DNA from: Terriglobia bacterium
GTDB taxonomy: Bacteria > Acidobacteriota > Vicinamibacteria > Vicinamibacterales > CAVVIG01
Length of the DNA: 59,687 bases
Direction: 5' to 3'
Assembly: GCA_020073005.1 (NCBI GenBank)
Contig: JAIQFX010000019.1
Location: forward strand, 1-59,687
Position numbers and translations under genes: made by a program. This document shows positions 3,763 to 27,200 of the stretch, one piece after another; the stretch's first letter is position 1, and each line of letters opens with the position of its first letter. A model generated the notes under the pieces. That model was not told where the DNA came from and ran no database searches. It worked only from the letters and a program-made list of their open reading frames with translations.

Positions 3763-3771
3763 GCTTCATGC

Positions 3772-3785: not shown

Positions 3786-3881
3786 GTGAACGCCATCCGC
3801 TGTTGCGCATGCTCGTGTTGCCCGGCCGGGGACCTCTCCGGCCTTGCCCGCGGCGCGTCGACACGGATCGGGCCTTCCTAA
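3786..3881 (+). CDS. Cys-rich leader peptide 1 (putative cysteine attenuator)
   Basis: A 31-codon ORF beginning GTG and ending TAA, with peptide start (M)NAIRCCACSCCPAG: five Cys in seven residues (positions 6, 7, 9, 11, 12). It is followed 33 bp later by a strong intrinsic terminator and then the thioredoxin-fold gene at 3974. Within the leader, GGCCGG (3824-3829) can pair with CCGGCC (3838-3843), and the ACCTC in that loop (3832-3836) is complementary to GAGGT (3922-3926) in the terminator. Inference: ribosome stalling at Cys codons when Cys-tRNA is scarce could favour antitermination. The same arrangement recurs at 23592-23757 before the sulfite reductase operon, which is the main support. 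There is no clear Shine-Dalgarno. Confidence 0.62.
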   Translation: MNAIRCCACSCCPAGDLSGLARGASTRIGPS

Positions 3882-3913
3882 CTTCGGCACGATTCAGGTT
3901 CAGCGCAGCAGGC

Positions 3914-3946
3914 AGGCCCGGGAGGTTCACGCTTCCCGGGCCTTTT
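3914..3946 (+). terminator. Intrinsic terminator/attenuator 1
   Basis: Stem AGGCCCGGGA (3914-3923) pairs with TCCCGGGCCT (3934-3943), followed by TTTT-G-TTTT. It lies between the Cys-rich leader ORF and the downstream gene. It is almost identical, including the loop, to the terminator at 23723-23757; only one base differs across the hairpin. Confidence 0.85.
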
Positions 3947-3973
3947 GTTTTGTAGTTTTTGGGGGAGTCTCGC

Positions 3974-5212
3974 ATGAAAACGAAGATCTCGCTTCTGTTC
4001 GCGGCCGTCGTGCTTAGCCTCGTCGCGGTGCCGGCGCCAGCCGGCGCGCAGTCCCTCGCGGGCATGTGGGACGCCACGGTCATCGTCAACAACGCCGGTC
4101 TCGAGATTCCGTTCCGGATGGAGTTCTCGGGCTCCGGCAACAGCATCAAAGGGTCGTTCTTCAACGGCGACGAGAAGGTGACGTCCACGACCGGCAAGTT
4201 CGAGAACGGTGCGCTGCTGCTCGGCTTCGACGACATGGGCACGACGCTCGAAGCCACGCTGAAGGATGGCAAGCTGGAGGGCCGGTACGCACGCGGCACG
4301 CGCGGCAATCCCTACCCGTTCACCGCGAAGCGCTTCGCGCCCGCGCCGACCGGCGACAAGGACATCCCGTCGATCGCCGGACTCTGGACGATTCCCACGA
4401 CGAGCTCGAAGGGCGAGTCCGCCTGGCGCCTCATCGTCCGGCAGGCCGGCGCCGAGGTGTCGGCGTCGATTCTGCGCATCGACGGCGACACCGGCGCGCT
4501 GACCGGCTCGTACACGAACGGGAAGTTCGTCCTGAGCCACTTCTCGGGCATGCGTCCGGCGCGCCTGGAACTGACGCCGAACGCCGACGGCACGCTGTCG
4601 GTCGTCCAGAACACCGCCGCGCCGCTGAGCGCGGTGCGCGCCGAGCAGGCGCTCGCGAAGGGCTTGCCGCAACCGTCCGATCCCTCGCGCTTCACCAGCG
4701 TGAAAGATCCGAGCGAGCCGCTGCGCTTCTCCTTCCCGGATCTGACCGGGAAGCTCGTGTCCAACACCGACGCCCGCTTCCAGGGCAAAGTGCTCATCGT
4801 CAGCATCGGCGGCAGCTGGTGCCCGAACTGCCACGACGAGACGCCGTTCCTCGTGGAGCTGTACAAGAAGTACAAGAGCCGCGGGCTGGAAGTCGTCGAG
4901 TTGTCGTTCGAGGAAGAGGCGCAGCTCAAGAATCCCGTGCGCGTGAAAGCCTTCATCAAGAAGTACGGGATCGACTACACGGTGCTGCTGCCCGGCGAGC
5001 CGCGGCAGCTCAACGAGAAGATGCCGCAGGGCGTGAACCTCAATTCGTTCCCGACGACGTTCTTCCTCGGGCGCGACGGACGGGTCCGCAGCGCGCACGC
5101 CGGATTCCCGGGCGCGGCGAGCGGCAAGTTCCACACGGAAGCGAAGGAAGAGATCACGGCGCTCGTCGAGCGGCTGCTGGCCGAGCGCGCGCAGTCGTCC
5201 GCCGGACAGTAG
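3974..5212 (+). CDS. Secreted TlpA-like thioredoxin-fold protein
   Basis: A 412-residue exported protein with signal peptide (KTKISLLFAAVVLSLVAVPAPAGAQ). The N-terminal two-thirds are a beta-rich region of unknown function with two similar halves. The C-terminal 160 residues are a TlpA/AhpC-type thioredoxin fold with the active site SWCPNCHDE (redox pair CPNC) and the cis-Pro region NSFPTTFFLGRDGRV. By family knowledge it would act outside the cytoplasm on disulfides. The ATG at 3974 was chosen because GGGGGAG sits 8 bp upstream and the signal peptide begins there; an in-frame TTG at 3959 lies in the terminator tail. Position behind a Cys-rich leader and terminator suggests control by cysteine availability (inference). 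Confidence 0.85.
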   Translation: MKTKISLLFAAVVLSLVAVPAPAGAQSLAGMWDATVIVNNAGLEIPFRMEFSGSGNSIKGSFFNGDEKVTSTTGKFENGALLLGFDDMGTTLEATLKDGKLEGRYARGTRGNPYPFTAKRFAPAPTGDKDIPSIAGLWTIPTTSSKGESAWRLIVRQAGAEVSASILRIDGDTGALTGSYTNGKFVLSHFSGMRPARLELTPNADGTLSVVQNTAAPLSAVRAEQALAKGLPQPSDPSRFTSVKDPSEPLRFSFPDLTGKLVSNTDARFQGKVLIVSIGGSWCPNCHDETPFLVELYKKYKSRGLEVVELSFEEEAQLKNPVRVKAFIKKYGIDYTVLLPGEPRQLNEKMPQGVNLNSFPTTFFLGRDGRVRSAHAGFPGAASGKFHTEAKEEITALVERLLAERAQSSAGQ

Positions 5213-20924: not shown

Positions 20925-23522
20925 TCAGCGGGCGGCGAGCCACGTCGTCACGGCTGACGTCTGCGATTCCCTCAGCTCGATGCAGCTGTTGATCTGCTCC
21001 AGCGTCTGGTCCAGCGTGCGCGACGCCGCCGGCAGCGGATGCTTCGCGAAGAACGCGACGACCTCGTCGCGCGCGTGCGCGTCGCAGAAGCCGGCCAGCG
21101 CCCTGACGAGATTCGTATCGCCGCCGAAGATGCTCACCCTGGGCGCGAGCTCGGTCCAGTGGGCGTTCACGAACGCCCACGCTCGCGGCCGCGCGGCCGC
21201 GGTGGAGAAAAAGCGGCCGAGGAAGAGCGCCGCGTCCTGATTGCGCACCTGCGGCGAGAGCACGCGCTGCAGGCCGCGATCGATCAGCGCCGGATCCCGA
21301 AAGTTCGCCAGCGCGTAAAGATACCGATACTGATCCTCGGGCGACGGCGCGCGATCGGCGGCCGCCGCGAGCGCGTCGAAGAGCGCCGCGTCGCCGTGCT
21401 CGGCCGCGGTCCGGATGACGGACGCCGCCGTCGTCGGATCGAGCGCGGCGCCGCCCGCGAGCGCGCGATCGACCGCGCTTCGCGCCTTCGAGACGACGTC
21501 GGGATCGTTGCCGAAGCTGCCGAGCGCGGCGACGACCGTCGAGCGCAGCGTTCGACGCTCGTCGCTGTCGGACGCCGAGGCCGTCAGGCCCACCTCGTCG
21601 AACAGCGGCCGCAGCAATGCCCGCGCGAAGCGCTCGAAGGACGCGCGCGTCGTCTCTGTCGTCAGATAGGCGTGGATGAAGCCGAGGCGACTGGTCGCTT
21701 CCTGGAGAACACCGCTCGTGTGCTCCTTGCCGTACCCGGCCGCCAGTGTCAGGTAGTCGCCGATCGTGTGGCGACCCGCCCGCACCATCGCCCATTCATC
21801 GTCCAGGAGCATCAGTCGTTCTGACGCGTTGAGGTCCGTTTCCACGTGCGGCGCGATTCCGCGGAGGAGCTCTGGTGAATAGGCCGTCCGGTAGTACCCG
21901 CGGGCGCCCGCGTTGGCGAAGATCCACGGTGAACACGTGCCCGGCATCGTGATCTCGCGCGACGCGTCTGTCAGAACGTCGCACGTGGGCGAGGACTGCC
22001 CGGCGCCTTTCAGGCACACGGGAATCTGCCAGCGGCCCGCCTCCGTCGACGCGGCATTGGTGAAGAATCGCCGCTGCGTCAACGTGACGATCGTGCGATT
22101 GGCGACGCACGCGCTCGAGACATCCAGAAGCGGCACACCCGGCTGATTCACGAATGTCGGCAGAATGCGCTCGACCGGCTTGCCTGATGCCGACGAGATC
22201 GCCTTCCAGAGATCTTCTGACGCGGCGTTCTTGTACGCGTGCGCCTCCAGGTACGCGTTGATCCCGTTGCGAAACGCCTCAGGCCCGACGTAGTTCTCGA
22301 CCATGCGCAGGACGGCCGCGCCTTTCTCGTACGCGATCCCGTCGAACGCCTCGTCGATCTGCGCGGGCGTCTCCACGTCGGCGTGAATCGGCCGCGTCGA
22401 CCGCAGCGCGTCGAGATTGAGCGCGGACCGGTTTTCTTCCGTTTCATCGACGGCGATGTTCCAGTCGGCGCGCGTGGCCGCCAGCGGCTTGTTCGCCATC
22501 CACGTGGCGAAGCCCTCGTTCAGCCAGACGTCGTCCCACCACTGCATCGTCACGAGATCGCCGAACCACTGATGCGCCATCTCGTGCGCCAGGATCGATG
22601 CGATGGTCTTGCGCGTCGCGACGGACGCCGACTTGGAATCAGCGAGCAGATCGGTCTCGCGATAGAAGATCGCCGCCGTGTTTTCCATCGCGCCGGCGGC
22701 GAAGTCGGGGACGGCGACGACGTCGAGCTTCACGAACGGATACGTGATCGCGTAATAGCTGTTGTAGAACTTCAGGATCTGCTGCGCGGACTCGAGCGCG
22801 ATCTTTCCCAGGTCCGTCTTGTCCGGCGTCGCGCAGATGCGAATCGGAATGTTGTCCGCCGCGCCCTCGAGGCACTTGAAGTCGCCGACGGCCATCGCGA
22901 CCAGATACGACGACATCTTCGGCGACGTCGCGAACTTCATCGTGTGCTGCGTCAGGGCGGGGCCGGGCGTGTCGGAAAGGACCTTGCCGTTCGAGATCGC
23001 CGAGTCGCCGCGATCGATGGTCAGCGTCACGGCGAACGTCGCCTTGAAGGCCGGCTCGTCGAAGCAGGGGAACGCGCGACGCGCGTCGGTCGATTCGAAT
23101 TGCGTGACCGCGTACTTACGCGCCTTCGTCTTGCTGATGTAGAAGCCGCGCAGGTTCGTGCTCAACACACCCGAGTACCGGATGTGAATCGTCGACGGCC
23201 CCCTGGCCAGCGCGTTGCGCACGGTCAACGTCGCCGTCTGCGCGTTCTCGTCCAGAGCGACCGTCGCCGCCTGCACGGATGCGCCGTCGCCGATCGTCAC
23301 GTCGCGAAACGTGACATCGACGGCATTCAGGACGATGCGCGACGTCGGCTCCTCGATCTGAACCTGAATGGCCTCGGTGCCATCGAAGCGTTCGTGCAGC
23401 AGGTCGACGACGAACGCGAGATCGTAGTGAGTGGGAAGAACCGTGGATGGAAGCCGCTGGGCCGCTGCGGGCGATGCCGTCAGCGTGACGGCCGCGAGCA
23501 CGGCCGGGACGAAAACTCTCAT
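20925..23522 (-). CDS. M1-family zinc aminopeptidase, exported
   Basis: 865 residues with signal peptide. The exopeptidase motif AAGAMENTA (about residues 275-282), zinc site HEMAHQWFGD (about 311-320) and the third ligand in NEGFATWM follow in order, then an ERAP1-type helical C-terminal domain. It removes N-terminal residues from peptides, probably in the periplasm. The ATG at 23522 opens a good signal peptide (VFVPAVLAAVTLTASPAAAQ). It is divergent from the Cys-rich leader of the sulfite reductase operon. Confidence 0.93.
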   Translation of the reverse strand: MRVFVPAVLAAVTLTASPAAAQRLPSTVLPTHYDLAFVVDLLHERFDGTEAIQVQIEEPTSRIVLNAVDVTFRDVTIGDGASVQAATVALDENAQTATLTVRNALARGPSTIHIRYSGVLSTNLRGFYISKTKARKYAVTQFESTDARRAFPCFDEPAFKATFAVTLTIDRGDSAISNGKVLSDTPGPALTQHTMKFATSPKMSSYLVAMAVGDFKCLEGAADNIPIRICATPDKTDLGKIALESAQQILKFYNSYYAITYPFVKLDVVAVPDFAAGAMENTAAIFYRETDLLADSKSASVATRKTIASILAHEMAHQWFGDLVTMQWWDDVWLNEGFATWMANKPLAATRADWNIAVDETEENRSALNLDALRSTRPIHADVETPAQIDEAFDGIAYEKGAAVLRMVENYVGPEAFRNGINAYLEAHAYKNAASEDLWKAISSASGKPVERILPTFVNQPGVPLLDVSSACVANRTIVTLTQRRFFTNAASTEAGRWQIPVCLKGAGQSSPTCDVLTDASREITMPGTCSPWIFANAGARGYYRTAYSPELLRGIAPHVETDLNASERLMLLDDEWAMVRAGRHTIGDYLTLAAGYGKEHTSGVLQEATSRLGFIHAYLTTETTRASFERFARALLRPLFDEVGLTASASDSDERRTLRSTVVAALGSFGNDPDVVSKARSAVDRALAGGAALDPTTAASVIRTAAEHGDAALFDALAAAADRAPSPEDQYRYLYALANFRDPALIDRGLQRVLSPQVRNQDAALFLGRFFSTAAARPRAWAFVNAHWTELAPRVSIFGGDTNLVRALAGFCDAHARDEVVAFFAKHPLPAASRTLDQTLEQINSCIELRESQTSAVTTWLAAR

Positions 23523-23548
23523 GGTTGCAAGTGTAACGGGTGCGCGAC

Positions 23549-23577
23549 TTGACGCCGACGCTCGAAGAAGGTAAAAA
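23549..23577 (+). promoter_or_regulatory. Candidate promoter of the siroheme/sulfite reductase operon
   Basis: TTGACG (23549-23554), 17-bp spacer, TAAAAA (23572-23577). The expected transcription start is about 8 bp upstream of the Cys-rich leader ATG. Confidence 0.55.
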
Positions 23578-23591
23578 GTAGGGCATTCCTC

Positions 23592-23693
23592 ATGGGTCAG
23601 TCGACCTGCATGTGTAGCTGCTGTTGTTGCGGGCTCTCCGCGAGCCCCTGCGCCGGTGGTCTACGCGCGTGCATGCCGATGAACCTCATGTGA
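23592..23693 (+). CDS. Cys-rich leader peptide 2 (putative cysteine attenuator)
   Basis: A 33-codon ORF (ATG to TGA) with six Cys in eight residues at positions 6-13 (CMCSCCCC) and further Cys at 20 and 27. It lies between a TTGACG/TAAAAA promoter and an intrinsic terminator that precedes the siroheme synthase and sulfite reductase genes, whose pathway ends in cysteine. GGGCTC (23631-23636) can pair with GAGCCC (23642-23647) just after the Cys run; GAGCC there is also complementary to GGCTC (23734-23738) in the terminator hairpin. Inference: ribosome stalling on Cys codons frees GAGCC to disturb the terminator. Polycysteine leader ORFs with attenuation are known in mycobacteria; this would be an independent case working through a terminator. 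Confidence 0.72.
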   Translation: MGQSTCMCSCCCCGLSASPCAGGLRACMPMNLM

Positions 23694-23722
23694 TCTAGTT
23701 CATCAGCAACCAACGCAGACCC

Positions 23723-23757
23723 AAGGCCCGGGAGGCTCACGCTTCCCGGGCCTTTTT
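23723..23757 (+). terminator. Intrinsic terminator/attenuator 2
   Basis: Stem AAGGCCCGGGA (23723-23733) pairs with TCCCGGGCCTT (23744-23754), T-run to 23757. It ends only 6 bp before the ATG of the next gene and leaves no room for a usual ribosome-binding site there. It is nearly identical to the hairpin at 3914-3946. Confidence 0.88.
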
Positions 23758-23763
23758 GTTTTT

Positions 23764-24396
23764 ATGGCTGATTTGCTTCCGCTTTTCCTGAATCTGACCG
23801 ATCGATCGGCCGTTCTCGTCGGCGCCGGACGCGTCGCCGCGGGCAAGCTGCGACAGTTGCTCGCCGCCGGCGCGCGCGTGCGCATCGTCGCGCCGGAGAT
23901 CGGCGACGAGATTGCCGCGCTTGCTCGCTCGCCTGAAAGGCTCGCGCTACAACTCATCCGCCGTGGGTTCGTTCCGGAGGATCTCGACGGCGCATGGCTC
24001 GTCGTCGCGGCGGCGATACCAGCGGTCAATCGTCAGGTGGCCGAGGCTGCCGAGGCGCGACGCGTGTTCGTCAACGCCGTCGACGATCCACCCAATGCCA
24101 GCGCGTACCTGAGCGGCGTCATCCGGCGCGACGGCGTGACGCTGGCGATTTCGACGAGCGGCGACGCGCCGGCATTGACCGCGCTCCTGCGCGAGGGGCT
24201 GGACGCGCTGCTGCCGCGCGATCTGGACGCGTGGATGACACGCGCGCGCGCCGAACGCGTCGTCTGGCGCCGCGACGGCGTGCCGATGGACGACCGCAAG
24301 CCGCGCCTGTTGCGCGCGCTGAACGATCTCTACAACGCAACCGCTTCCGACCCGAACGTACCCTGGCTGAATGCACCGGAGGATTCGTGGCTGTAA
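23764..24396 (+). CDS. Precorrin-2 dehydrogenase / sirohydrochlorin ferrochelatase
   Basis: 210 residues matching the N-terminal CysG/Met8p module: LPLFLNLTDRSAVLVGAGRVAAGKL (NAD-binding GxGxxA loop), then NAVDDPPNASAYLSGVIRRDGV and the SGDAPALTALLRE segment. It oxidises precorrin-2 and inserts iron to make sirohaem, the cofactor of the reductase two genes downstream. The ATG at 23764 follows the terminator T-run directly and has no Shine-Dalgarno. A 22-bp sequence shared with the cytochrome gene encodes part of residues 55-61 (RSPERLA). It overlaps the next gene. Confidence 0.92.
   Translation: MADLLPLFLNLTDRSAVLVGAGRVAAGKLRQLLAAGARVRIVAPEIGDEIAALARSPERLALQLIRRGFVPEDLDGAWLVVAAAIPAVNRQVAEAAEARRVFVNAVDDPPNASAYLSGVIRRDGVTLAISTSGDAPALTALLREGLDALLPRDLDAWMTRARAERVVWRRDGVPMDDRKPRLLRALNDLYNATASDPNVPWLNAPEDSWL
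23927..23948. repeat. Dispersed 22-bp element, copy 2
   Basis: Identical to 12979-13000. It is in frame inside the siroheme synthase gene, in a different reading phase and orientation from copy 1, so protein homology does not explain it. Confidence 0.6.
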
Positions 24397-25169
24397 TGGG
24401 ACATGTTTCACTCGTGGGCGCCGGACCCGGCGACCCGGGACTGCTGACACGGACGGCCATCGCGCGCCTTCGCGCGGCGGACGTCGTGCTCTTCGACGCG
24501 CTGATCGACGAACGAATTCTGAAATACGCGAGGCGCGCGCAGCGCTTCTTCGTCGGCAAGCGCGCGGGCCGTCATGCGATGACGCAGACCGCCATCAACG
24601 CCGTGATGATTCGCGCGGCCCGCCGCGGCCGGCGTGTGGTTCGCCTCAAGGGCGGCGATCCGTTCGTGTTCGGACGCGGCGGCGAAGAAGCGCTCGCGCT
24701 GCGGCACGCCGGCGTTCCGTACGACGTCGTGCCGGGCGTCACCAACGCCGTGGCCGCGCCCGCGCTGGCCGGCATTCCGGTCACGCATCGCGGCCTCGCG
24801 TCCGCGTTTCTGGTCGTGTCGGGCCATGACGAAGAGGCGTTCGCGTCGGCGATCGCCGGCCTCGAGCCGAACGGCGTGACGGTCGTCGTGCTGATGGGCC
24901 TCGGCCGCTCGGCCGCGATCGCCTCGCGGCTGATCGATCGCGGGTGGTCGCGCGGCACGCCAGTGGCGATTGTCGTGGACGCGTCGCGGTCGCGGCAGCG
25001 GACCTGGCGCGGCACGCTCGATCAGCTCGCGCTGGACAGCGTCGAATGGGACGCGCGGAGCGCCGGAACGATCGTCATCGGCGCGGTTGCCGCACTCGCG
25101 GCGGCCGCGCCGGCGGCGTCGGCGAGCGCCGTGACCCGCGCGCTGGGAGGGCACCATGTCCGTGGTTGA
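24387..25169 (+). CDS. cobA: Uroporphyrinogen-III C-methyltransferase
   Basis: About 260 residues, the usual length for single-domain SUMT. Family blocks seen: VSLVGAGPGDPGLLT, VVLFDALID, RLKGGDPFVFGRGGEE, YDVVPGVTNAVAAPALAGIPVTHRG and VVVLMGLG. It makes precorrin-2 from uroporphyrinogen III with two SAM. The GTG at 24387 has GGAGG 4 bp upstream; an ATG at 24396 in the same frame is the alternative. It overlaps both neighbours, so siroheme synthase, this gene and the reductase are one operon. Confidence 0.93.
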   Translation: MAVMGHVSLVGAGPGDPGLLTRTAIARLRAADVVLFDALIDERILKYARRAQRFFVGKRAGRHAMTQTAINAVMIRAARRGRRVVRLKGGDPFVFGRGGEEALALRHAGVPYDVVPGVTNAVAAPALAGIPVTHRGLASAFLVVSGHDEEAFASAIAGLEPNGVTVVVLMGLGRSAAIASRLIDRGWSRGTPVAIVVDASRSRQRTWRGTLDQLALDSVEWDARSAGTIVIGAVAALAAAAPAASASAVTRALGGHHVRG

Positions 25170-26991
25170 TGATCCGAAGACCTTCGGGCGCGCGCGCCTG
25201 CCGTTCTCCAGCGTCGCGGATATCGACGAGTTCGTCACGACGCTCGAGCGCTACGAGCGCGGGGAGCTGACGCCGGATCAGTGGCGCGCGTTCCGGCTCG
25301 TGCGCGGCACGTACGGCCAGCGTCAGGCGGACGACGCGCAGATGCTGCGCGTGAAGATTCCGCAGGGCGTGCTGACGAGCGACCAGCTCGACGCGCTGGC
25401 CGACGTCGGCGAGCGCTACTCGCGCGGCTTCGGTCACATCACGACGCGCCAGAACGTCCAGTTCCATTTCGTGAAGCTCCACGACGTCGAGCCGGTGATG
25501 CGCCGTCTTGCCGGCGCCGGTCTGACGACGAGGGAAGCGTGCGGCAATTCGGTCCGCAACATCACCGCGTGCGCGTACGCGGGCGTCGCGGCCGACGAGC
25601 GCTTCGACGTCACGCCGTACGCCGAGGCGCTGACACGCTACCTGCTGCGCCATCCGCTTGCCTCCACGCTGCCGCGCAAGTTCAAGATCGCGTTCGAAGG
25701 CTGCGCGACCGATCACATCGCGATCGCGATCAACGACCTCGGGTTCCGCGCGCTCGTCGGACCGGACGGCGGCCGCGGGTTCCGCGTGACCGCGGGCGGT
25801 GGCACGGCGATCCTCGTCACGTCCGCCGGCGTGCTCCACGAATTTCTGCCGGCGTCGGAAATCTTTCGCGTCGCTGAAGCCGTGCTGCGCATCTTCCATC
25901 GGCTGGGCGATTACGAGCACAAGCAACGCAACCGGATGAAGTTCCTGATCAAGACGCTGGGCTGGACCCGGTGGCGCGAGGAATACGACCGCGAGCTGAC
26001 GGCGTGCCGGCTGCGCGGCCAGGTGCCGACGCTCGAAATCGATTCACCGGCGACGGAGCCGACGCCCGACTGGGCGAAGGACGTGCCGCCGCCGGTCGGT
26101 GACGTGGCCGAGCGCGTCGCGGCCGGCCGGACCACCGGTCCGGGCCTGACGCCGACGATCGCGCCGTTGCTCTTCGCCGGCGATGACGCGTACGCGCGCT
26201 GGCGCGTGACGAACACGCATCCGCAGAAGCAGTTCGGCTACGTCATCGCCGTGGCCAGCGTGCCGCTCGGCGATCTGACGGGCGAGCAGATGCGCGTCGT
26301 CGGCGAGCTCGCGCGCGCGTACGGCGACGGCACGGTCCGCGTCACGCTCGATCAGGATCTGCTGTTCAGGTGGGTGAATGCGTGCGACGTGCGCCAGCTC
26401 TACCGCCGGCTCGCGGCGGCCGGGCTGGGCCTCGCCGAAGCCGGCACGATCGCGAACGTGACGAGTTGCCCCGGCGCAGAAACGTGCCGGCTCGCCGTCA
26501 CGCAGTCGCGCGGACTCGGCCGGCTGCTCGAGGATCATCTGCGTGGGCGTCCGGACCTGATTGCCGCGGCCGACGGCGCGCGCATCAAGATCAGCGGCTG
26601 TCCGAACGGCTGCGGGCAGCACCACATCGCGACGCTCGGGTTTCAGGGCAGCGTGCGGCGGCTCGGATCGCGGGCCGTGCCGCAGTACTTCGTGATGGTC
26701 GGCGGCGGCGCGCACGATCGCGGCGCGTCGTTCGCGCGGCTGGCGGCGAAGATCCCGGCGCGGCGGATTCCGGACGCCGTCGAGCGGCTGATCGCGCTGT
26801 ACGCGCGCGAGCGCCAGCCCGGCGAATCGGCGACCGCGTTCTTCGGCCGCGTGGATCTGACCGTCGTGCGGGTCGAGCTGGCCGGCCTCGAGCGGCTGCA
26901 GCCGGGCGACGCGGTCCCGGCCGACTTCATCGATCTCGGCGAGGCGCACGAGTTCGCGCCCGAGGTGATGGAGGGTGAGTGCTCGGCCTAA
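25156..26991 (+). CDS. Ferredoxin-type sulfite/nitrite reductase (siroheme)
   Basis: 611 residues with the two-fold repeat of the nitrite/sulfite reductase family: the ferredoxin-like half-domains (GHITTRQNVQFHFV and the later TVRVTLDQDLLFRWV) and the siroheme-4Fe4S site SCPGAETCRLAVTQS (Cys near 438 and 444) with SGCPNGCGQHH (Cys near 481 and 485). It reduces sulfite to sulfide by six electrons. Operon position behind a Cys-rich attenuator favours assimilatory sulfite reduction over nitrite reduction. The ATG at 25156 follows GGGAGG and overlaps cobA by 14 bp. Confidence 0.93.
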   Translation: MSVVDDPKTFGRARLPFSSVADIDEFVTTLERYERGELTPDQWRAFRLVRGTYGQRQADDAQMLRVKIPQGVLTSDQLDALADVGERYSRGFGHITTRQNVQFHFVKLHDVEPVMRRLAGAGLTTREACGNSVRNITACAYAGVAADERFDVTPYAEALTRYLLRHPLASTLPRKFKIAFEGCATDHIAIAINDLGFRALVGPDGGRGFRVTAGGGTAILVTSAGVLHEFLPASEIFRVAEAVLRIFHRLGDYEHKQRNRMKFLIKTLGWTRWREEYDRELTACRLRGQVPTLEIDSPATEPTPDWAKDVPPPVGDVAERVAAGRTTGPGLTPTIAPLLFAGDDAYARWRVTNTHPQKQFGYVIAVASVPLGDLTGEQMRVVGELARAYGDGTVRVTLDQDLLFRWVNACDVRQLYRRLAAAGLGLAEAGTIANVTSCPGAETCRLAVTQSRGLGRLLEDHLRGRPDLIAAADGARIKISGCPNGCGQHHIATLGFQGSVRRLGSRAVPQYFVMVGGGAHDRGASFARLAAKIPARRIPDAVERLIALYARERQPGESATAFFGRVDLTVVRVELAGLERLQPGDAVPADFIDLGEAHEFAPEVMEGECSA

Positions 26992-27074: not shown

Positions 27075-27168
27075 ACTTCTTTATCCAGAGTGGCTGAGGG
27101 ACAGGCCCTGTGACGCCACGGCAACCACGCGACACCCGCGGTCGCGGTTCAGGTGCCAATTCCTTCCC
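27075..27168 (+). ncRNA. SAM-I (S-box) riboswitch
   Basis: The conserved S-box parts are in order: TTATCCAGAG, GAGGGACAGGCCC (kink-turn side), TGACGCC, CGGCAACC and AGGTGCCAATTCC. A variable P4-like stem ACCCGCGGTCGCGGT lies between. It senses S-adenosylmethionine and precedes the homoserine dehydrogenase gene by about 30 bp. Confidence 0.92.
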
Positions 27169-27182
27169 GGCCCGTTGCCGGG
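27166..27182 (+). promoter_or_regulatory. Expression-platform hairpin next to the hom ribosome-binding site
   Basis: CCCGGC-ccgtt-GCCGGG with no T-run. CCTTCCC (27162-27168) upstream is complementary to the GGGAGG (27191-27196) before the hom TTG start. Translation control therefore seems more likely than termination. Confidence 0.5.
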
Positions 27183-27200
27183 GGAGATGAGGGAGGCTCG

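Follow-up and report, generated by a model that had tools for sequence, protein, structure and literature searches.

A short reading frame crowded with Cys codons lies between a promoter and a terminator, ahead of genes for siroheme synthesis and a nitrite/sulfite reductase. The question raised by this locus is whether the arrangement lets the supply of cysteine decide if these genes are transcribed. It was found in a stretch of 59,687 nucleotides (the window) from contig JAIQFX010000019.1 of a Terriglobia bacterium (Acidobacteriota, Vicinamibacterales), where an initial annotation had read it as a cysteine attenuator. This reading is supported by comparison with relatives and by swap and shuffle controls on the competing structures, along with some weak or negative results given below. 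In all likelihood the leader would act as a ribosome-mediated transcription attenuator that reads charged tRNA-Cys.

Architecture of the leader

The features of the locus, and those of a second leader in the same window, are collected in Table 1. The proposed promoter is present, with a weak -10 box (four of six consensus matches), and ends 14 nt before the leader ORF; a promoter scan over 22500-25000 listed no promoter, including none at this position. The 33-codon ORF with its CMCSCCCC segment is also present as first described, and eight of its 33 residues are Cys (codons 6, 8, 10-13, 20 and 27). The last Cys codon of the run (23628-23630) is directly followed by the expected RNA stem, with arms GGGCTC (23631-23636) and GAGCCC (23642-23647). 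The terminator hairpin contains 14 pairs, 10 of them GC, followed by TTTGTTTTT. A strong terminator was correctly recognized, but its distance from the first gene, originally given as 6 bp, is 9 nt from the hairpin end to the ATG (23764), and the T-rich tract fills this gap. Because the gene to the left is divergent, the leader terminator does not serve it.

Table 1. Predicted features of the two polycysteine leaders and their neighbouring genes in the window
Feature	Position	Strand	Basis and remarks
Sigma-70-like promoter TTGACG-N17-TAAAAA	23549..23577	+	TTGACG 23549-23554, 17-nt spacer, TAAAAA 23572-23577
Polycysteine leader ORF, 33 codons, near-leaderless	23592..23693	+	ATG 23592 to TGA 23693; peptide MGQSTCMCSCCCCGLSASPCAGGLRACMPMNLM
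Regulatory Cys codons C-M-C-S-C-C-C-C, predicted stall site	23607..23630	+	Longest run 3-6 codons in the 17 family leaders
Hairpin 1:2 (GGGCTC/GAGCCC), putative anti-antiterminator	23631..23647	+	Fold -13.4 kcal/mol; partner-swap test
Antiterminator 5' strand (GAGCCCCUGCGCC and GGUCU; strand 2)	23642..23662	+	Duplex with 23717-23738; begins at expected exit from stalled ribosome
Antiterminator 3' strand, AGACC plus terminator 5' arm and loop	23717..23738	+	Duplex computation, swap test, pair counts
Intrinsic terminator hairpin and T-rich tract	23723..23763	+	Hairpin 23723-23754, terminator scan; pair counts
Precorrin-2 dehydrogenase (SirC / CysG N-terminal-like), first gene of operon	23764..24396	+	PF13241, TIGR01470
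Uroporphyrinogen-III C-methyltransferase (CobA/CysG C-terminal)	24396..25169	+	PF00590; NF004790, TIGR01469 above cut-off
Nitrite/sulfite reductase family protein	25156..26991	+	PF01077, PF03460; below NCBIfam equivalog cut-offs shown
M1 peptidase, left neighbour	20925-23522	-	Domain search
Second polycysteine leader ORF, GTG start, VNAIRCCACSCCPAGDLSGLARGASTRIGPS	3786..3881	+	Covariance model hit 3816-3951, E 1.6e-6
Terminator of second leader (GGCCCGGGAGGTTCACGCTTCCCGGGCC then TTTT)	3915..3946	+	Sequence; antiterminator duplex -34.6 kcal/mol, z -3.0
Redoxin (ResA/TlpA-like, WCPNC), gene behind second leader	3974..5212	+	PF08534, PF00578; NF002854 below its cut-off

The leader region folds at -83.8 kcal/mol, compared with -61.3 +/- 4.5 in dinucleotide shuffles (z -5.0). 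No Rfam family matches the leader at its gathering score, and the sub-threshold match with the lowest E-value reaches 19.5 bits against a 70-bit cut-off. The run of Cys codons is not rare by itself, because four successive TGY codons (TGYTGYTGYTGY) occur 56 times in the genome, fewer than the 114 occurrences of the reversed control. Thirty of the 56 places were inspected, and these include five short ORFs (<=60 codons) with a CCCC run. Only the window leader among the five has a strong terminator (-29.7) within 250 nt; the sole other hairpin found behind them has a value of -7.3. No other attenuator-like ORF was found at these 30 places.

The genes behind the leader are right in kind for the siroheme/sulfite reductase operon originally proposed. 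However, the choice of 'sulfite' over 'nitrite' is an interpretation, since the reductase scores under every NCBIfam equivalog cut-off shown; its product is probably an assimilatory sulfite reductase.

Distribution among relatives

A search of relatives for the reductase gave matches in 47 of 60, and the upstream regions of 37 places were taken. The family set consists of 25 loci, five of which end before the leader (L036, L039, L040, L042 and L064), leaving 20 with intact upstream sequence. Both the Cys run and the terminator are found at the corresponding place in 17 of these. Loss of the Cys codons with retention of the terminator, the pattern named beforehand as speaking against a cysteine attenuator, is the exception (two of 20); these two loci (L047 and L053) retain both the promoter and the terminator but have no run of Cys codons. 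The remaining locus (L052) has neither run nor terminator. In L043 the leader precedes cobA and no sirC was found there, while in two of the five cut-off genomes sirC-cobA lies on another contig with the leader present (L334 and L335).

The two exceptional loci fit an alternative in which the terminator is constitutive or answers some other signal (metal, or general ribosome stalling) and the Cys run is incidental or reports stress at Cys codons instead of the cysteine supply, and the redoxins and peroxiredoxins found behind such leaders would likewise fit oxidative stress. However, leaders from across the phylum repeatedly carry Cys codons at this position, and many of the downstream genes are cysteine-supply genes, which makes this alternative very unlikely. 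Nor do redox genes exclude a cysteine sensor, since such a sensor would also respond when the cysteine pool is oxidized. The terminator before sirC in L047 and L053 looks like a constitutive one from which the Cys leader has been lost. The genome of L047 retains a Cys leader ahead of its CysD-type gene (L308).

Beyond the family, a Cys-run ORF is found upstream in seven of 12 order-level sirC loci (L054, L055, L056, L059, L062, L063 and L058, the leader of the last being counted from L301). A draw of 396 genomes from the phylum contained 75 with a reductase match at E 1e-60 and yielded 58 new upstream regions, some of them shortened by contig ends. These were scanned for an ORF of <=60 codons that contains CCC, or four Cys within seven residues, and has a terminator of <=-12 kcal/mol within 200 nt behind it. 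The rule is passed by 23 of the 58 regions in sense orientation, compared with two of 58 in antisense. In a set of 80 named loci the corresponding counts are 13 and one, and here 11 of the 22 with Acidobacteriota-group titles pass as opposed to two of the 58 others (three of the 22 are titled Sulfopaludibacter, Blastocatellia and Terriglobia, which we take to be Acidobacteriota groups). One of the two others, L155 (titled Bacteroidetes), carries a CCACCCC leader and a terminator directly before the reductase gene; it looks like a genuine leader and, of the 80 named loci, would be the only convincing one not titled as Acidobacteriota. In L173, the other one, the terminator is weak and distant. 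The search for Cys-rich ORFs ahead of siroheme or sulfate genes of relatives, originally proposed as a check, thus finds them recurring across the phylum, and also before the other sulfur genes described below.

Reading frame and start site

The longest Cys run in the 17 family leaders spans three to six codons, with 34 TGC and 43 TGT codons in total, and nine runs of four Cys codons show six spellings. The Cys codons thus vary in spelling, so that it is the amino acid that is kept and not the DNA. The C/T changes show that the segment is coding but not in which frame, as they are equally silent in the Leu frame one position over, and the argument for the Cys frame therefore rests on counts of open frames. 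In all 21 leaders the Cys frame has a start codon and stays open, although an open Cys frame was itself a selection criterion for these leaders.

Two other readings of the repeats were rejected. A poly-Leu reading, in which the TGY repeats are taken as (C/T)TG one frame over, is open in only nine of the 21 leaders, and in the window this frame is closed by a TAG just before the run. The poly-Ala/Val frame is open in four of 21.

The residues that follow the run are partly conserved in close relatives. Together with the high Cys content of the peptide, this would suit a functional small Cys-rich protein, binding metal or redox-active, with a terminator that merely limits downstream expression. 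Between genera, however, the peptides outside the run differ strongly, and leaders of different operons encode different peptides with the Cys run as their common feature. In L031, from the same genus as the window, one extra C after the run frameshifts the tail of the peptide while the RNA segments are kept. With the pairing evidence from the RNA added (swap test, z-scores of 53 leaders and pair counts of hairpin 1:2, all given below), a small protein seems highly improbable.

Counted from the first T of the -35 box, the chosen start codon follows after 37-43 nt in 18 of the 19 leaders tested, most often after 39 nt (nine of 18); no -35 box was found for the remaining one, L046. The start codon taken for L048 was an in-frame one 12 nt downstream of the first, and the -10 boxes across leaders match the consensus at three to five of six positions. 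At the usual promoter spacing, the first transcribed nucleotide lies some 35-36 nt downstream of the base that opens the -35 box. The 5' untranslated region would then be only ~1-8 nt long, and the leader ORF may be translated as a leaderless or near-leaderless message.

Predicted competing RNA structures

In the window the best duplex between a strand beginning at 23641-23642 and the segment that includes the terminator 5' arm has an energy of -31.9 kcal/mol, and the terminator alone one of -32.0. The footprint of a ribosome reaches some 12 nt past the first nucleotide of its A site. At codon 13 the ribosome would therefore cover the first strand of hairpin 1:2 (strand 1), and strand 2 would be the first to emerge. 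In 17 of 21 leaders, the strand that pairs best with the terminator arm begins 9-14 nt behind the run; in the other four the offset is 6 (L049), 19 (L048), 32 (L059) and 38 nt (L045).

The strength of this duplex varies from leader to leader. When the intervening region of the 21 leaders was dinucleotide-shuffled, the observed energy was matched by <5% of the shuffles in only 10 leaders, and z is positive in three (L045, L048 and L050). A set of 53 further leaders, with shuffles that kept base composition only, gives a mean duplex z of -1.78, with 49 values below 0 and 26 at <=-1.64 (Wilcoxon p 9e-10). The non-Cys terminators of the fetched loci, which are few (23), have a mean z of -0.45, and five of them lie at <=-1.64; the difference from the Cys leaders is supported both by the ranks (Mann-Whitney p 8e-5) and by the counts (26 of 53 vs five of 23, Fisher p 0.04). 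The input to the set of 53 came from nine of the 13 named loci (L101, L110 and L114, as repeat genomes, and L173, as doubtful, were left out), 24 of the 34 regulon regions described below (21 passed the rule), and the 58 phylum loci, of which 23 passed and 22 rows were used, one being dropped for too short a middle region. On average, therefore, strand 2 and the terminator pair better than chance. In these 53 leaders the terminator begins a median of 85 nt after the run (quartiles 81-92) and the leader stop codon lies a median of 27 nt before it.

Swapping partner strands between leaders gives further evidence for the pairings, in statistics that ignore phylogeny. For 16 leaders the cognate mean is reached by 57 of 20000 permutations for hairpin 1:2, by three for strand 2 with the arm, and by 20 for the outer helix. 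The corresponding numbers for the 17 family leaders are 137, 617 and five of 20000.

The family alignment shows some covariation in hairpin 1:2 and in the terminator. Hairpin 1:2 has eight cells changed on both sides, a number that only one of 500 shuffles reaches; however, it does no better in this alignment than a register slid by +2 columns (pairing 73.3 vs 76.5% slid, covariation score 0.216 vs 0.222 slid). The terminator has 95.4% of its cells paired and three pairs changed on both sides, as reached by two of 500 shuffles. The inner antiterminator helix, between strand 2 and the arm, is paired in 91.6% of cells in the family, with covariation not beyond that of the shuffles. Pair counts could not be made for the outer helix, whose 3' strand the MAFFT alignment places wrongly, and the assessment of this helix therefore comes from the swap test. 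RNAalifold, applied to the whole leader, returns only the hairpin after the run and the terminator.

Equilibrium folding with a stalled ribosome in place did not flip the terminator, which wins in 21 of 21 leaders (P 0.87-1.00), and for this reason the tests on partner strands were used. It also follows that any switch must be kinetic and rest on the order of synthesis. With no ribosome, and before the 3' arm is made, the 5' arm is paired upstream at >=0.5 in 15 of the 21 leaders (0.62 in the window, again at equilibrium).

The position of the hairpin raises the alternative that the leader acts mainly on translation, the hairpin near the sirC start blocking ribosome loading and stalling opening it. 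In the window only 9 nt separate the hairpin from the sirC start, and this gap shows no clear Shine-Dalgarno sequence. Mycobacterial polycysteine short ORFs are described as regulating downstream translation in the relevant passages of PMC9031893 and PMC13236596. Over the 21 leaders, however, the distance from hairpin end to first gene spans -6 to 97 nt, so that occlusion of the start is not a constant feature, yet a hairpin with a T-rich tract is found in all 21 (the T run being required by the search). A mainly translational device is thus unlikely; a combined effect on transcription and translation in the window is possible.

Proposed mechanism

The window contains a leader ORF, predicted to be translated, with a conserved Cys cluster, an intrinsic terminator before the first gene and, at the level of sequence, an antiterminator that competes with this terminator and would be freed by stalling. 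From these parts a transcription attenuator can be proposed, in which stalling, termination and the response to cysteine are all predicted from sequence. RNA polymerase would start a few nucleotides before the leader ORF, and a ribosome would load at the near-5'-terminal start codon. When Cys-tRNA is plentiful, the ribosome would pass the Cys run, and hairpin 1:2 would fold behind it and hold the start of strand 2. With this sequence sequestered, the terminator would form and transcription would end before sirC. When Cys-tRNA is short, the ribosome would stall on codons 10-13 and cover strand 1. Strand 2, left free, could then pair with the antiterminator 3' strand before the 3' arm of the terminator is made, and the polymerase would read through to give the sirC-cobA-reductase transcript.

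The trp, his, leu and thr attenuators of enterobacteria combine a leader peptide rich in the regulatory amino acid with 1:2, 2:3 and 3:4 pairings and a T tract. The leader in the window differs from them in using cysteine as the amino acid, and in a start codon that apparently coincides with the RNA 5' end or lies close to it. Given the median of 27 nt between leader stop codon and terminator, it seems to be the stall on strand 1 that exerts control.

A second leader and a putative cysteine regulon

The leader before sirC is not a single element, as a second one is present in the same window ahead of a redoxin gene. It was found with a covariance model built from the family leaders and is listed with a GTG start; an ATG at 3768 is also in frame. 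The N-terminus of the redoxin looks by eye like a signal peptide. A relaxed search of the window's own genome with the model returned both leaders, matches antisense to them and one weak C41 match (E 0.02). The leaders before redoxin genes in L307, L312, L313 and L315 have the core CSCCPAG in common.

In the relatives, the model (from 17 leaders) finds matches in 42 of 60 genomes at E 0.01. There are at least 75 matches, some mutually antisense, and 40 of the 75 listed were examined with their flanks. A Cys-containing ORF is present in 34 of the 40 regions, with weak cases in L300, L306 and L328. No Cys ORF was found in the other six regions (L310, L311, L317, L323, L324 and L325), which are probably terminator-only matches.

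Of these 34 regions, 29 precede sulfur or thiol genes. Most frequent are genes for proteins with a PAPS-reductase domain (CysD/CysH type, eight) and redoxins (seven), followed by TauE/SafE (four), sirC or sirC-cobA (three), PALP enzymes that by eye are cysteine-synthase-like (three), PF03601 (YeiH-like, two) and 1-Cys peroxiredoxins (two). The others are a porin, an NMT1-like binding protein, two genes with no Pfam family, one of which is RimK-like by NCBIfam, and one that is cut off (L332). Among 30 PF01507 loci, a Cys leader and a strong terminator are found upstream in nine (L184, L185, L189, L191, L192, L201, L202, L204 and L205), most of them the same places as model matches; in L201 the gene behind the leader is TauE/SafE (L320). 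The device appears to recur with a different leader ahead of each operon, and the operons so controlled would make up a cysteine regulon of Acidobacteriota.

Some individual cases deserve mention. In L322 an MCTCACCC leader and a terminator precede a gene for a RimK-like ATP-grasp ligase (below the NCBIfam cut-off), possibly a thiol-peptide ligase as judged by its regulation. The 1-Cys peroxiredoxin genes of L306 and L328 lie behind short leaders with CSCC or SCC that have the stretch RRKAVWGLRG in common, and these leaders may represent a related but different device.

The cysS gene was considered as a further target and ruled out, a leader with terminator being found in none of 25 loci from relatives (first 1600 nt each, some with little upstream sequence; two of 27 loci, being partial, were left out of this control).

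The balance of these observations tips slightly towards a broader proposal, that many Acidobacteriota run their cysteine metabolism mainly by near-leaderless polycysteine attenuators, one per operon, putatively in place of a CysB- or CymR-type regulator. If true, such a regulon would comprise sulfate activation, sulfite reduction, sulfur transport, cysteine synthase and thiol-redox proteins. It would be controlled by RNA only and would give functions to unannotated genes (YeiH-like transporters, RimK-like ligases and redoxins). Little is known of how amino acid supply is controlled in Acidobacteriota, which are abundant and poorly cultured soil bacteria, and the leaders offer a concrete and testable candidate for a cysteine sensor together with a list of target operons. 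They also indicate a probable role in cysteine metabolism for several genes of uncertain function, namely the NIR/SIR reductase, the redoxins and transporters of the YeiH and TauE types.

Comparison with known cysteine leaders

Leader peptides rich in Cys are described from Mycobacterium, Propionibacterium acnes and Bifidobacterium longum in the relevant part of PMC1262725. According to the same part, Mycobacterium lacks a conserved hairpin able to serve as a terminator, and the abstract places the group among leader peptides without obvious terminators. Experiments by Canestrari et al. 2020 on leaderless polycysteine ORFs of M. smegmatis are reported in passages of PMC9031893, PMC13236596 and PMC9094748, the last of which also mentions six polycysteine ORFs predicted in M. 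tuberculosis. As far as these accounts go, the mycobacterial leaders, which are leaderless, resemble those described here in being short ORFs with contiguous Cys codons, several per genome, ahead of cysteine genes and with cysteine as the signal. They differ in being described as translation attenuators and in having no conserved terminator, whereas the Acidobacteriota leaders have an intrinsic terminator and a competing antiterminator. Because its terminator is conserved, the leader in the window was not filed as a member of the mycobacterial type. Polycysteine leaders occur in two distant phyla, Actinobacteria and Acidobacteriota, where they are apparently coupled to different read-outs.

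A closer parallel is uORFC-8-2 (PMC8632094), a motif predicted ahead of the Rhodobacterales cysS gene, in which a pair of tandem Cys codons is combined with a terminator. The mechanism predicted for it is likewise ribosome-mediated attenuation of transcription at Cys codons, through an intrinsic terminator. However, uORFC-8-2 is described for one gene, cysS, in alpha-proteobacteria, whereas the Acidobacteriota leaders mostly have runs of 3-7 Cys and precede sulfur-assimilation and thiol genes, with none at the 25 cysS loci. The leader in the window, with its run of four upstream of sirC, is accordingly no member of this group.

The principle is thus known, and one two-codon version with a terminator is predicted for a tRNA-synthetase gene (PMC8632094). 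The claim of novelty first made for the locus holds for its gene set, lineage and architecture, but not for attenuation at cysteine codons through a terminator as such. Among the matches listed, no open-access title or abstract deals with cysteine attenuators of Acidobacteriota, and none with terminator-type polycysteine attenuators ahead of sulfur genes. What would seem to be new, relative to these matches, are near-leaderless polycysteine transcription attenuators with a terminator that serve multiple operons in Acidobacteriota. In a 2010 screen, almost no predicted attenuators of Acidobacteria had associated functions, according to the pertinent section of PMC2965389.

Sulfur metabolism around the locus

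The window's own genome gave no match to PF01507 (the PAPS-reductase domain of CysH or CysD) despite its reductase operon, nor did four of 18 other family genomes searched (G004, G007, G011 and G017). This suggests that sulfur is taken from sulfite or organosulfur compounds, or else that the assemblies have gaps. A SAM-I riboswitch (RF00162, 85.9 bits) lies just 3' of the reductase gene at 27078-27193, followed by genes for homoserine dehydrogenase and threonine synthase. As it adjoins the operon behind the Cys leader, two putative RNA sensors for sulfur amino acids are located less than 4 kb apart.
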